This document shows, piece by piece, positions 14,028-19,374 of a DNA stretch of 64,000 nucleotides. The DNA is from Ferrovibrio sp. (lineage in GTDB: Bacteria > Pseudomonadota > Alphaproteobacteria > Ferrovibrionales > Ferrovibrionaceae), in NCBI RefSeq assembly GCF_029255545.1, contig NZ_JANLJJ010000094.1:53870-117869 (forward strand), given 5' to 3'. Under the pieces are notes generated by a model. That model searched no databases, was not told where the DNA came from, and was given only the letters and a program-made list of their open reading frames with translations. A program made the translations under genes and the position numbers. Position 1 is the first letter of the stretch, and each line of letters begins with the position of its first letter.

Positions 14028-14861
14028 TTACTGCCCTATTTCTGGAAAGAGTGACGGCGCGCCATAACCACGCAATACCCCGCCACTTGCCCGAATCCAC
14101 TTACCCCAAAAATCTTCAATCGCCTTCATCTCGACCGAGGATTTGTACTTCCCATCGTCCGTATATCCAGCGCCGTGGATGTACACTTCAACGCCATTTA
14201 ACTGACCAATCATGTTGGCTAAACGCGCTTTATCGATCTCCTTGTCCGGCTCGATCCTCCGCACTTTGTTATTCGCGTAAAAGCTCGTTGTGGCTGAGTT
14301 CTCCAGCATATCAGAGAGTATAAAGAGGTATTGGCGCTCCGCTTTCTTGGTGGAAAGGAACTCGCGTGAGAGCATAGTTAGCGTGCCTAGGATCTCCGTG
14401 TTTGGCAGATTGGTCGACGACTCGTCGAAGATCTTTTTCAGATGGCCGGCAACAAGATTCCGCGTGGCAGATTCCTGCTCTTGCAGACATTTTGCCATTT
14501 TCGCCAATGCAACTTTTCCTGTCGTAAATTTCTTATTTTCAGGAATGTCCTGATCTAAAATCGCTTCTAGAACGACCTCACTATACCGCTCTTTCACAAA
14601 GGCTGAGAAGCTCACGAGAACTACGCGATCGCCAGGCTTTATGAATTTCTGAATCTTTTTATTGGCTGTTTCCTGCAGTCCCGCGTCGAACTTTGCCGTC
14701 TGATCAACGACGACGACAAGTTCACGCTTCGCCTTCGACGCAGCCTGTCCTGCTTCGACGATGGTGTAGCAGCTAGGAACCTCTACTGTTGCCGCATAGG
14801 CAGCTGACAAAGATAAAATACAGATAACTGCTACTCGAAAGATAAGCGCTATAGCACACAT
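14028..14861 (-). CDS. secreted von Willebrand factor A-like protein
   Basis: 277 residues from the ATG at 14861, chosen because GAGG precedes it and a signal peptide follows (MCAIALIFRVAVICILSLSAAYA). The mature part resembles a VWA fold: ELVVVVDQTAKFD (first strand and metal-site-like D-x-T), GDRVVLVSFSAF, then QYLFILSDMLENSA and GVEVYIHGAGY as core strands. The canonical DxSxS is not kept, so metal binding is uncertain. Ten bases after the polytopic membrane-protein gene in the same operon. Probably a periplasmic protein-interaction component; function unknown. Confidence 0.7.
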   Translation of the reverse strand: MCAIALIFRVAVICILSLSAAYAATVEVPSCYTIVEAGQAASKAKRELVVVVDQTAKFDAGLQETANKKIQKFIKPGDRVVLVSFSAFVKERYSEVVLEAILDQDIPENKKFTTGKVALAKMAKCLQEQESATRNLVAGHLKKIFDESSTNLPNTEILGTLTMLSREFLSTKKAERQYLFILSDMLENSATTSFYANNKVRRIEPDKEIDKARLANMIGQLNGVEVYIHGAGYTDDGKYKSSVEMKAIEDFWGKWIRASGGVLRGYGAPSLFPEIGQ

Positions 14862-14871
14862 AAAGGCCTCG

Positions 14872-16338
14872 TTATGTTGGTCGTACTGACAACTCACGAC
14901 GCAAACGAGCGCGCATCTCATCTTCTGTCTCTTCGCGTTGTGCATGCTCCTGTAAGAGTTCGGCCCGGATCCGGGCCTCCATTTCTTCCCGCGTCTCAGA
15001 ACGCCTTTCATCCGTCGTATCAACTGGCAAGGTCTTGGCTTGGGCAGCAGGCACCTCTTCCACAGATGATGTATGGCGCCGCGAATCATCCTTCTCTTTC
15101 ATAACTACAAAGCTATTGAAGTTGCGATCCTCGGCTTGACCGGCCATCTTCATGGCATCGCCCTCGATGCCGGTAGCAACTATACGATCGTCCATTCTCG
15201 CCTGCAGCCTAGAAAGATGGCCTTGAGCAACATTCGCGACCACATCCATCTTGGCACGATGGTAGTCGATGTATTCGTCCTCGGTTGTGAAGTTGTGGCT
15301 AATGCGCCATGCCTTCTTGGACTCTTTTCCGGCAAAGCCAGTTTTAAAGCCGAGCAAGACGCCGACGATCTGAATAAACACAAATAGAACGGCGAGAACG
15401 CCAAAAGTGACCAGACCACCTTTGCGCTTTGTCGTCGCAACCTCTTCGGCAGCCTTATGCTCAGCTGCTTTTTGAGGGCTGGAAAAAACGTCGGGAGCTT
15501 TATTGAGAGATGGAAAGCCAAATGACGGGCCGCTCGTTGGGCTCAACGTCGTCTCTTCGATAAGCATCTGTTCGAGCTTTTGTTGCCGAACATAGGCCGC
15601 GCCAGCGGCAACAAGAACGACCATAATAATGGTCAGAATGGTAACAATTGGCGGCCTAACACGCATATCGGCGCGCACATTGAGGCGATTACCGGTTTGC
15701 ACATAATGAGGTTCGTTATCGTCTTCATTGTTATTATCAATGCGGATTGCGCGCGAAGTGATGTTCTTCGCATTCCTATGGGCCGCCCATTGCGAGCGAA
15801 CCGCACTTACCATTCCCCTGACATACAACTCATGCCCTGTGAAATGGGTGAGCATGACAAGCAAAATTGAAATGACTATGGATATGCCGAAGGCGCCAGC
15901 CATCTGTGTCGCCTCAGATGCACCTGGGATAGTCCAGCCAGCTAGGACATACGAAAATCCAAGTGCCTCAATAAAGACGAGAACGCTAATCGCAATCCAG
16001 CCGCCCGTGCTCAGCGGCGATCGGCCGATCTCGTTGACCTTCGAGAGATAGCTGGCTGATTTTCTATAAGCTTGTGGATGCGAGCGGACTTCTCGATAAT
16101 TCTTGTAAAAATCCGTGCATAGCTCGATTTCAGACTGGAACCAGCCCTTATCAGCCCGCCGCGTCTTGCGTGAAAGTCTCGCTGCCTTGCCGATAATCGG
16201 CAAACTATACCAAGCGCTTTTCACAAAAAGGCAGACCTCTTCCCACCAGACTTTGAGGGACAGAATAAACGCCATTGTCAGTAAAATGGCGCCGATGATC
16301 GCCCGATAAGCGCTCAGGAAATCGTAGATTTCATCCAT
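14872..16338 (-). CDS. polytopic membrane protein with charged cytoplasmic tail, unknown
   Basis: 488 residues. Five likely membrane helices: about 13-31, 112-136, 144-165, 232-252 and 306-330. Between the third and fourth is an acidic, asparagine-rich stretch (RIDNNNEDDNEP). The last 60 residues are strongly charged and heptad-like (ETREEMEARIRAELLQEHAQ), a probable coiled coil. No family recognised. Twelve bases from the OmpA-domain lipoprotein gene and ten from the VWA-like gene. The set of membrane core plus peptidoglycan-binding partner recalls motor or channel complexes such as MotAB, TolQR or ZorAB in layout only, not in sequence. Confidence 0.75.
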   Translation of the reverse strand: MDEIYDFLSAYRAIIGAILLTMAFILSLKVWWEEVCLFVKSAWYSLPIIGKAARLSRKTRRADKGWFQSEIELCTDFYKNYREVRSHPQAYRKSASYLSKVNEIGRSPLSTGGWIAISVLVFIEALGFSYVLAGWTIPGASEATQMAGAFGISIVISILLVMLTHFTGHELYVRGMVSAVRSQWAAHRNAKNITSRAIRIDNNNEDDNEPHYVQTGNRLNVRADMRVRPPIVTILTIIMVVLVAAGAAYVRQQKLEQMLIEETTLSPTSGPSFGFPSLNKAPDVFSSPQKAAEHKAAEEVATTKRKGGLVTFGVLAVLFVFIQIVGVLLGFKTGFAGKESKKAWRISHNFTTEDEYIDYHRAKMDVVANVAQGHLSRLQARMDDRIVATGIEGDAMKMAGQAEDRNFNSFVVMKEKDDSRRHTSSVEEVPAAQAKTLPVDTTDERRSETREEMEARIRAELLQEHAQREETEDEMRARLRRELSVRPT

Positions 16339-16349
16339 GGTGTGCCTCG

Positions 16350-17903
16350 TTACTTGTCACTTGGAATTGTTGGAGCAAAATCGGCCACATGCACAATGCC
16401 GCCCTTATCGTAGTAAAGGCGGCCAAACTTGGTCTTGCCGGGTGCGCTTGTATCAAATACTAGGTCCATACATCGGACTGGCCAGGCGTCTTCTGCCATG
16501 AAGACGCGATACAGAATTCCAGACTCTCCCTCAAAGCCGCGCGCATTTGCCGGTGTCTTGATGGTCGGCACCTGGTCACCTGGCTTGTAATCCTTGAAAA
16601 CGATCATTTGCGGTGGCTCTTCAACTCTGGCTCCATCACGCAAAACTTTGACGCCAGAAAGACCGGCCAAATGGCCATTCAAATTCTGTGTCCATGACGT
16701 GCCGTAGAGGCCTGGCATATACGCACTCGTGCGCCGCGAGACCTCTTCGCCCGTGGCAAGCGAGCGCATGATTCCTACTTTTTGGTTCGGGTCTGACAGA
16801 CAGGAGGTTTCTGTATATGCCGTCTCGCTTGATGCGAACGCGCGACTGACAAAACTAAAGGTTGAACTCGATCTGGCTCTATCGCCAACCGCTGAGGCCA
16901 CCGCGACACCCTTGCCATTGACAGGCTGCCCCCCAAAGTCAATGCCAGTGCCTGGCTTCAACGCAACGGCGTATTCGACGTTGGCTTCGGCGGGCTTTTG
17001 GTGCTGTGGCTGCGATGATGGTGCCGACTTAACATTTGCCGCGGTCGGCGATGGCAGAGGCGCCACAGTGACAGTCGTACGTGCGATTTGACTCTTTGCT
17101 GCGCGCTGCATGTAATTGATATTAGCGTCTTGCTTCGCCTCGTAGGCTATGACGCCGCTTTCAGTCTGGAGCTCGACGACTTCGACACGCCGATTCAGCG
17201 CCCGGCCCTCTTCCGTCGTATTGTCGCCAATCGGCCGCGTCTCACCGGCGCCTTTATAGTAGATATTGCTCCGCGGAATGCCCGCATTAGCGAAGACATT
17301 GGCAACGGCCTTGGCGCGTCGCTCTGAAAGCGCCAGGTTCTGCTCAGCACCGCCAGAATTGTCGGTATGGCCGACGATTAGGACTTTGTTATTTGTGCCG
17401 GCATAGGCGCCGGCGATTGTGCGCATATCATTCTCTGTCGCTCGACTCATCTCGGCGCTGCCGACGTCAAACATTGACTTTGAGTGAATGATCGTTGCGA
17501 TGCCCTCATCGATCTTCTTGTCAGATGTCGTCTGATCGGGCTGCGTTCTCCAGTCAATCCCAGCCGACTTGACCTCAATCTCTTTCGCTGCCAAATCGAC
17601 CCCATAAAGGCGCTTTTTCGCCTCTTCGATCTTTTGACAGCGCTGCTTGATGAAATGGCTAGCCGTCGCGCCGATGGCACCGCCAGCCGCCGCACCAATA
17701 ACAGCCCCCTGGCCGCGATTGTTCTTCCCAGCAAGCATGGCACCAGCGAGCGCGCCAAGAATCGTGGCTCCAACAATATAGGCAGGTTCGCCGACACTGC
17801 ATTCTGGCGCCTCTGACACTGCACCATTTCGGCTCGCGCATCCGGCCAGGCTAAGAGCTGTCGCCGCAACGCATGTTGTCGCGATTCTTGAAACCGGCTT
17901 CAT
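16350..17903 (-). CDS. glycine-zipper / OmpA-domain lipoprotein
   Basis: 517 residues from the ATG at 17903 (GAGGGGG upstream). Lipoprotein signal with lipobox LAGC, cysteine 22. Then a glycine-zipper segment (about 30-75; GATILGALAGAMLAGKN, AVIGAAAGGAIGATAS), an OmpA-like peptidoglycan-binding domain (about 140-240; VGHTDNSGG and LSERRAKAV hold the diaminopimelate-contacting D and R), and a long C-terminal region of about 270 residues without a known domain. It should anchor the complex to outer membrane and cell wall. Middle gene of the accessory operon. Confidence 0.88.
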   Translation of the reverse strand: MKPVSRIATTCVAATALSLAGCASRNGAVSEAPECSVGEPAYIVGATILGALAGAMLAGKNNRGQGAVIGAAAGGAIGATASHFIKQRCQKIEEAKKRLYGVDLAAKEIEVKSAGIDWRTQPDQTTSDKKIDEGIATIIHSKSMFDVGSAEMSRATENDMRTIAGAYAGTNNKVLIVGHTDNSGGAEQNLALSERRAKAVANVFANAGIPRSNIYYKGAGETRPIGDNTTEEGRALNRRVEVVELQTESGVIAYEAKQDANINYMQRAAKSQIARTTVTVAPLPSPTAANVKSAPSSQPQHQKPAEANVEYAVALKPGTGIDFGGQPVNGKGVAVASAVGDRARSSSTFSFVSRAFASSETAYTETSCLSDPNQKVGIMRSLATGEEVSRRTSAYMPGLYGTSWTQNLNGHLAGLSGVKVLRDGARVEEPPQMIVFKDYKPGDQVPTIKTPANARGFEGESGILYRVFMAEDAWPVRCMDLVFDTSAPGKTKFGRLYYDKGGIVHVADFAPTIPSDK

Positions 17904-18153
17904 TATTCCCCCTCGTGACGCCATTTTTGAACGCCATCACATGTACCTGCCGAGGGAAACTATACGGCCACGCTGACGTGCGGTGCAATTTCAAGCGCAC
18001 ACCATGGTTCACGGGGTGGCAGATAGATTGCAATCGTATGCAGCCTTGCATGCGGGGCGTCTTTGAATACATATGTATTCGACACTGCTTGCATGCTGAA
18101 GATCGTGCGCCGCCTTGAAACTCTCAGGGAGTGACCTTTCGTCTAAGGCAATT

Positions 18154-18176
18154 CAGTAGAATATTATTCAGTAGAT
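18154..18176 (+). repeat. paired CAGTAGA motif upstream of the lipoprotein gene
   Basis: Two copies (18154 and 18169) 15 bp apart, about 250 bp upstream of the lipoprotein start. The same spacing occurs at 13906/13921, beyond the operon's 3' end. May be operator sites; role unknown. Confidence 0.35.
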
Positions 18177-18229
18177 TTGTCATTTTCGATCCGAACAAGG
18201 AGACAAGCGGGCCTTGATAGATTTTCGCC

Positions 18230-18269
18230 GGCAGGTCCCTACCAGGAGATTTTCGGCATTGGACCTGCC
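18230..18269. repeat. hairpin downstream of the protease gene
   Basis: GGCAGGTCC (18230-18238) and its exact reverse complement (18261-18269), 22-base loop, 20 bp beyond the protease stop on its 3' side. No U-run follows, so it is more likely a processing or attenuation hairpin than a classical terminator. Confidence 0.45.
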
Positions 18270-18288
18270 AACCCCACTGTACTCCGCC

Positions 18289-19263
18289 CTATAAGCCCTG
18301 GCAGAACTCCGCCTGTGTATTGATGATGCGGCATAGATGGCGCCGCACTCTGGTATCGATAAAGTTGACCGCGACAAACTCAGACGATCGGCAAAGTGCC
18401 AATGGGTCATTGGGGTCTTCGTCTTTGTTTGATTTTAGGTAATGTAGCAGACCGACCAGTCGCATCGGCTCATTGTCATTGATCGGCATCAAAATCACCG
18501 GCCCGCCGCTGTCCCGCCAGCAACTGCCACTACTGCCCTGGCTCAGGGTCTCGTCATAGATAAATTTAAACAGACCACCATTCTGCGGCGGTTCAGTCTC
18601 TGAAACCCCAAGTAACGCCTCTTTCGGCGTGTCTTTGACCGCCGTATTGGCGCCGTAACCTGCCAAGGCGAACCGCTGGCGCCCTTTGGCATTAGGCGTT
18701 GAGAGCACTGGCATATCAAGGCTGTTCGCCTCAATCTGGTCGACCATGAGCACTGCGATATCAAGATTGACAGCCACCACGCTTGGATCACTGCTATTGG
18801 GCTCAGCCGCTGCATAGTCGCGAATGGTCGAGACTGCTGTTTCTTTAGGCCGCCTGATTGCAACAAGCGACTTGTCGACGCGTCGGCCGTTGCCATCAAG
18901 TAGGCAGTGCTTGGCTGTGATGATGCGATCTTTAGCAATGTAAGTGCCCGTACAGACCATTTTGCCAGACACAAAGACTGGAACGACCAGGCCAAAGCGT
19001 TGAGCTGGCAGATCTGAGATAGTGATGCAGCCATCATTCATGCCGCCCGATTCGCCTATACATTTATGGTGCATAATCATCGGTACGACATGATCGTTAA
19101 TCGACAGCTCTTTGGCGATATCAAGCGGCAGGCCAAAGTCTGAGCCATAAGGCGTTGTGGCCTCGAAACGATACTGTTCAGCCTTGGCCTTATCGGCTGG
19201 CCGCATCAGAAACTTGCCATCGGCCATAGCCAGCAAACCGGCACGCACCATCAAGTCATTCAA
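18289..19263 (-). CDS. trypsin-like serine protease (S1 family), 5' end uncertain
   Basis: 324 residues from a TTG at 19263. The catalytic triad is complete: H119 in ITAKHC, D168 in NLDIAVL, S252 in CWRDSGGP. Cysteines next to H and S fit the usual disulfides. The first 85 residues (for example LLAMADGKFLMRPADKAKAE) precede the protease domain and match nothing I know. No signal peptide is seen. The frame stays open upstream with no stop to 19374, directly behind the TGA of the NUDIX gene and in that same frame, without ATG or ribosome site. The true N-terminus may therefore have been lost at an insertion junction. First gene of the envelope operon. Confidence 0.8.
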   Translation of the reverse strand: MNDLMVRAGLLAMADGKFLMRPADKAKAEQYRFEATTPYGSDFGLPLDIAKELSINDHVVPMIMHHKCIGESGGMNDGCITISDLPAQRFGLVVPVFVSGKMVCTGTYIAKDRIITAKHCLLDGNGRRVDKSLVAIRRPKETAVSTIRDYAAAEPNSSDPSVVAVNLDIAVLMVDQIEANSLDMPVLSTPNAKGRQRFALAGYGANTAVKDTPKEALLGVSETEPPQNGGLFKFIYDETLSQGSSGSCWRDSGGPVILMPINDNEPMRLVGLLHYLKSNKDEDPNDPLALCRSSEFVAVNFIDTRVRRHLCRIINTQAEFCQGL

Positions 19264-19374
19264 GAATTCGCGCTCTAAGCTCGAATCTGGCTTTTGAAGC
19301 AGAACCCGGGGGTTAATCTTGCGCGACAGCTTCTCAAAGGCAGCTTCTAGTATTGTATGTAACGCCGACAGCCA

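Follow-up and report, generated by a model that had tools for sequence, protein, structure and literature searches.

Which genes of an apparent envelope-spanning gene cluster in accessory DNA form a functional unit, and what might that unit do? Such a cluster occupies positions 14028−19374 of a 64,000-nucleotide stretch of the Ferrovibrio sp. contig NZ_JANLJJ010000094.1 (the window; coordinates below refer to this whole stretch unless a locus is named). The initial annotation, based on the sequence alone, read the cluster as an unrecognised four-gene envelope operon, encoding a trypsin-like protease, an OmpA-type lipoprotein, a polytopic membrane protein and a secreted von Willebrand factor A (VWA)-like protein, and speculated about a role in defence. 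All four reading frames are present on the minus strand, and the spacing of the last three, put at 10−12 bp, measures 11 bp between genes A and B and 10 bp between B and C. We find that A, B and C (14028−17903, minus strand), each preceded by a GAGG-type ribosome site, constitute a real module of three envelope genes that is conserved and apparently without a name; the protease is not part of it:

16350−17903, minus strand: gene A, OmpA-family lipoprotein, 517 aa
14872−16338, minus strand: gene B, polytopic inner-membrane protein, 488 aa
14028−14861 (from the conserved ATG), minus strand: gene C, secreted VWA-fold protein, 277 aa
18289−19263 (TTG start; frame open to 19374), minus strand: trypsin-like serine protease open reading frame (ORF), outside the module

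The order A−B−C is kept in 39 of 39 loci with enough flanking sequence, far more consistently than chance would allow, with median gaps of 17 and 1 bp, and trio loci span Alpha-, Beta- and Gammaproteobacteria as well as Campylobacterota. Pairwise identities of A, B and C co-vary across 40 sequences (r = 0.95−0.97), and tblastn searches of plasmids with B and with C matched the identical 20 records. Plasmid carriers belong to Pantoea, Paraburkholderia, Caballeronia, Aeromonas, Acidiphilium and Aliarcobacter, and annotated examples have the three genes in order; a scan of genome contigs added 33 further loci. Gene order and co-inheritance thus confirm that A−B−C is an unrecognised, co-conserved envelope operon. 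Its distribution is patchy: the trio was found in 5 of 385 genomes of the class and 11 of 399 of the phylum (weak matches counted in), in 6 of 25 and 14 of 200 species of two genera, and in 1 of 18 within the window's own family. No trio was found in E. coli with the nucleotides of one Pantoea C gene alone as the query. Some copies reside on plasmids or in islands and DNA rich in insertion sequences (IS). In a tree of B and C, to be read with caution because of some long branches, the window's copy pairs with one alphaproteobacterium, whereas the copy from the Acidiphilium plasmid falls among those of Burkholderiaceae and others, as transfer would predict. Apart from shared species backgrounds and IS elements, no other genes recur near the trio. 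Published descriptions of it were not found in the literature searched, which covered neither preprints nor most subscription journals.

The products carry the envelope features that had been ascribed to them, namely, a lipobox and an OmpA domain in A, five hydrophobic segments and a coiled-coil-like tail in B, and a VWA fold in C. The signal of A contains the lipobox LSLAGC, with the lipid-anchor Cys22 kept in 35 of 36 sequences (40 sequences for all other counts in A). It is followed by a glycine zipper (residues ~41−82) and an OmpA peptidoglycan-binding domain (145−239; OmpA E-value = 1.6e−21), in which the peptidoglycan-binding residues Asp181 and Arg196 are conserved in 38/40 and 40/40 sequences, respectively. 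The C-terminal domain of ~200 aa (~320−517) is specific to the trio and has an invariant cysteine pair (C368/C478, 40/40). The best NCBIfam match of A is of the YiaD type (E-value = 7e−35). Assignment to the YiaD equivalog (NF053611) was rejected at 120.6 bits against a cutoff of 175, as was assignment to the Pal equivalog (TIGR02802) at 59.7 bits against 125.35. A PADLOC match to ZorB3 (9.3e−12) is restricted to the OmpA domain.

Gene C encodes a protein with an SPI-type signal peptide, as judged by eye, and its predicted location is the periplasm. No family in Pfam, NCBIfam or PADLOC matched it. For its AlphaFold model (predicted local distance difference test score, pLDDT, of 87), the top Foldseek matches are VWA-type proteins (E-value = 1.6e−5, probability 1.00), with one pilus adhesin among them. 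Residues resembling a metal ion-dependent adhesion site (MIDAS) are nearly invariant (D53, S86 and D184 in 50/50 sequences, T55 in 49/50), with DxT replacing DxSxS, so that C has both the Rossmann-like fold and the MIDAS residues of a VWA protein. Cys31 and Cys125 form a further conserved pair, and in the sole exception both are missing together.

Protein B has five predicted transmembrane (TM) segments and a helical, coiled-coil-like C-terminal tail. Two conserved residues lie within the membrane, Glu124 in TM2 (49/49) and Gln323 in TM5 (48/49). Searches of Pfam, NCBIfam and PADLOC gave no meaningful family match (none at E ≤ 1 in PADLOC), and the MotA_ExbB profile is absent from all 27 B-family members scanned. 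When the AlphaFold model of B (pLDDT 84.6, predicted template-modelling score 0.69) was compared with PDB folds, nothing fell below an E-value of 0.67, and there was no significant fold match among viral proteins; sequence relatives of B and C were not found in the PDB either. Membership in the type VII secretion system, hinted at by EccE (E-value = 0.0042), was rejected, being far under the family cutoff. In the copy on an Aliarcobacter plasmid (L003:7438−12510), zinc-ribbon-like repeats replace the coiled-coil tail of the B homologue, and a NYN/OST-HTH protein (putative RNase) is encoded immediately downstream of C.

Profile searches with C retrieved distant VWA proteins in Alphaproteobacteria, and nearly all of their genes that were examined adjoin a gene for a coiled-coil polytopic protein, in pairs denoted B'−C' or B''−C''. 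C is homologous to these proteins at the profile level (98.1%, E-value = 6.5e−14 for C'; 98.5%, E-value = 3e−15 for C''), and in the reverse search the C' profile finds the window's C within its own genome (E-value = 1e−7). B' and B'' are also clearly related to each other (96%). In most C' loci, the pair is followed by a ZorA-like and then a ZorB-like gene, and the resulting four-gene operons are present in rhizobia, Paracoccus, Sinorhizobium, Microvirga and other Alphaproteobacteria. The loci are:

L095:5391−10663 (alphaproteobacterial genome G512): four-gene operon
L094:6963−11807: four-gene operon
L122 and L096−L100: four-gene operons

PADLOC ZorA-type matches of the ZorA-like proteins often fall on the coiled coil, and in L122 on the membrane part too (E-value = 3e−8), whereas the ZorB/OmpA-like proteins match ZorB2 with E-values of 1.4e−27 (L095) and 8.8e−32 (L122). 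The latter proteins are fused at their C-termini to GmrSD_C/HNH in L095 and to SNase in L094 and L122, and close to several plasmid loci a thermonuclease is encoded by a gene of its own. The four-gene operon is a candidate Zorya-like defence system, with its nuclease predicted to lie in the periplasm; the papers searched contained no account of it. Protein A has the OmpA domain alone in common with the ZorB-like proteins of C' loci. A ZorA-like profile had no match in the window's own genome, although a single search is weak evidence. Other arrangements of the pair were also observed. At L121:6444−10281, the genes downstream of B''−C'' are a 242-aa gene (7383−8111), which appeared enzyme-like by eye yet matched nothing and belongs to no known family, and one for a membrane protein with a ZorA-like motif, recognised by eye. 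Neither OmpA nor motor genes accompany the B''−C'' pairs of L092 and L093, whose neighbours are of the housekeeping kind (lepA; sigma-factor and typA-like genes).

Taken together, the lipoprotein, OmpA and VWA properties and the co-inheritance of the three genes make it likely that A, B and C form one trans-envelope complex. A would be held by its lipid anchor, presumably in the outer membrane, with its OmpA domain gripping peptidoglycan; C would act as a disulfide-bonded periplasmic VWA adaptor that binds a partner via its metal site; and B would span the inner membrane, with its tail in the cytoplasm. If the wall or outer membrane is disturbed, e.g. by phage entry, this might be relayed from A and C to B, which could respond via Glu124/Gln323 or via the tail, for example, by ion flow or by recruitment of a cytoplasmic effector. 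The explanation that we prefer overall, tentatively and just short of calling it probable, is a mobile, self-contained trans-envelope complex for envelope surveillance, perhaps directed against phages. A surveillance or conflict role is favoured because the trio is patchy and mobile, and because relatives of C keep company with ZorAB-like proteins and nucleases. Defence against phages or in other conflicts would be the leading candidate function, viewed with some doubt because the flanks are housekeeping-like, no effector is apparent and a defence-island signal does not emerge consistently.

These and several other observations weigh against the surveillance reading. None of the three proteins contains a recognisable effector enzyme. 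Of 108 ORFs that flank ~30 loci at distances of up to 6 kb, most are housekeeping genes, with isolated matches to Gabija, CBASS-type, PDC-S08 and mad3 defence genes, so that clustering with defence genes, suggested by the accessory setting, was not borne out; there was no consistent association with defence islands, 25 PADLOC families being represented among the matches listed, with no matched control set. Species of Aeromonas, and likewise those of the P. putida group, have flanking genes in common around the trio, as would be expected of a settled gene. C occurs in none of the phage records, and a C-pattern search of viral contigs found no trio. Inspection for a shared promoter motif (LexA, AlgU, sigma-54, Rcs, Cpx) gave nothing worth reporting beyond ribosome-site words. 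Finally, B matched B' with a probability of only 18% (E-value = 0.0013). A global comparison of B with B' and B'' together reached 65% (E-value = 8e−6, controls <1%), and the homology of B and B' is suggestive rather than established. Because this relation is weak, the Zorya-like link of the trio rests on C and on gene order.

The strongest competitor is a transferred housekeeping-type envelope complex, similar to Pal or YiaD, with A fastening the outer membrane to the wall, B−C maintaining or remodelling the envelope under stress, and no part in conflicts. The resemblance of A to YiaD-type lipoproteins, the mostly housekeeping flanks, some of them common to different species of Aeromonas or of the P. 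putida group, and the lack of an effector domain are all in line with it. However, most close relatives do without the trio, which is sometimes plasmid-borne or found in IS-rich DNA, A stays under the YiaD cutoff, and VWA relatives of C accompany ZorA-like and ZorB-like genes and fused nucleases; we regard this explanation as rather doubtful. A surface, adhesion or secretion apparatus, with C as a MIDAS-type ligand binder displayed or moved by A and B, could account for the pilus adhesin among the structural matches, ligand binding being frequent among VWA folds, and for the position of one copy (L004) near secreted-protein genes. It is unlikely, given that conservation is limited to the trio, that genes for a pilin, usher, barrel or ATPase do not recur with it and that C is predicted to be periplasmic. 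More improbable still is the degeneration of a Zorya-like system of four genes, with the trio left over after loss of the motor genes. Such an origin would explain why C and the placement of a polytopic coiled-coil gene before the VWA gene are common to the trio and the B'−C'−ZorA-like−ZorB-like operons, but dozens of species, separated by long branches, conserve the trio in intact form, and ZorB-like proteins do not share the conserved C-terminal domain that A has of its own. For these reasons, we consider the trio a system in its own right.

The operon of four genes with the trypsin-like protease as the effector, as originally proposed, is barely credible. The protease is adjacent and on the same strand, it matches Pfam Trypsin (4.6e−12), and its H119−D168−S252 triad, as expected of an S1-type domain, is intact and had been numbered correctly, counting from the TTG at 19263. 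It is, however, separated from A by 385 bp, and of the proposed block only A−B−C recurs in other genomes: relatives of the protease are absent from 40 trio loci with their flanks and from plasmids, and 289 genomes of the class gave only weak trypsin-domain matches. In addition, its frame, which has neither ATG nor signal peptide, stays open as far as the island junction, and DNA similarity to congeners starts at that point. The gene thus seems 5'-truncated, its 5' end probably having been cut at the junction. The features that define the surroundings are:

19373−19377, minus strand: island junction, at the Nudix stop codon; similarity to three congeners starts at 19373, 19375 and 19381
19375−20091: Nudix gene, adjoining the protease at the junction
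4828−5349, minus strand: partial second copy of the Nudix 3' part (77% identity), on the other side of the low-GC stretch
12967−13302, plus strand: RelE/ParE-type toxin (TIGR02683, 91 bits, cutoff 62.85), outside the module
13275−13673, plus strand: putative antitoxin, overlapping the toxin gene

From ~2 to 19.3 kb, the GC content is 0.45−0.57, compared to mostly 0.60−0.70 in the flanks. This low GC content and the sharp edge of similarity indicate that the trio genes lie in acquired DNA. The accessory character of the region had been noted from remnants and a toxin-antitoxin pair, and both IS remnants and the RelE/ParE pair are there. The Nudix gene and its diverged partial copy, with an IS3-type fragment beside the latter, bracket the low-GC stretch, which suggests an insertion or recombination event. 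The island also contains an apparently complete IS5-type transposase ORF (3670−4458) and a gene for a membrane-bound PAS sensor histidine kinase (9990−11756) with no obvious adjacent response regulator. Rfam and tRNA scans of the window gave no matches.

The analysis gives a widespread three-gene unit that has neither name nor annotation a defined composition, and adds two protein families, B and C, that are absent from Pfam, NCBIfam and PADLOC, B being without a structural match as well. It is conceivable, though on the unlikely side, that a polytopic protein and a VWA protein constitute a reusable envelope-sensing core, partnered either by lipoprotein A or by a ZorAB-like motor in which the ZorB-like protein bears a nuclease domain, predicted to be periplasmic. 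If so, envelope-level phage defence would extend beyond Zorya to a superfamily, so far undescribed, of conflict or anti-phage systems based in the envelope, and the sensing of injection at the wall would be testable in a small, portable system.

How does the trio compare with known systems? The anti-phage system Zorya consists of a ZorA/ZorB core with ZorC/ZorD or ZorE, where ZorA is a MotA/TolQ/ExbB-like inner-membrane protein, and ZorB has an N-terminal TM helix with an ion-binding Asp followed by an OmpA-type domain (PMC11890865). Like Zorya, the trio combines a peptidoglycan-binding OmpA domain with an inner-membrane protein and with a coiled-coil tail in the cytoplasm, and relatives of C are encoded in operons that include ZorA-like and ZorB-like genes. 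By contrast, A is a lipoprotein, whereas ZorB is TM-anchored and has a membrane acid; B lacks a MotA/ZorA profile or fold match; the trio has an extra VWA protein and contains no helicase or nuclease effector. Classification of the trio as Zorya was therefore rejected, neither ZorA nor ZorB being recognisable and no ZorC/ZorD/ZorE-type gene being present in the trio or as a recurring neighbour. B was likewise rejected as a Mot/Tol/Exb stator, a class that pairs a TolQ/MotA fold with a TolR/MotB partner bearing a TM acid: it has no such fold, and its layout differs, the invariant Glu lying in TM2. Motor-associated vWA transducers are TM-tethered VWA proteins with an SHLS motif or a transpore-helix Asp, encoded beside TolQ-like genes (PMC12204202). 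The predicted periplasmic VWA protein in a trans-envelope complex of proteobacteria is a point in common (PMC12204202), but C starts with a signal peptide and the trio has no linked TolQ-like gene, which places it outside their definition. With Pal of the Tol−Pal system and with YiaD, A shares the lipobox, glycine zipper and OmpA plan, and differs in scores under the equivalog cutoffs and in the extra conserved domain of ~200 aa; TolQRAB partners are missing. The B'−C'−ZorA-like−ZorB-like operons have a homologue of C and a polytopic coiled-coil gene directly before the VWA gene; they differ from the trio in having the ZorAB-like pair, in some cases with a nuclease fused to it or encoded close by, and in lacking lipoprotein A. 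Thus, the likeness to Zorya, Mot and Tol noted at the outset does not hold as membership, since neither the fold nor a profile of MotA/TolQ is matched by B and since A is a lipoprotein. There is nevertheless an indirect, non-trivial link through the homology of C to VWA proteins encoded beside ZorA-like and ZorB-like genes, some of them with fused nucleases.

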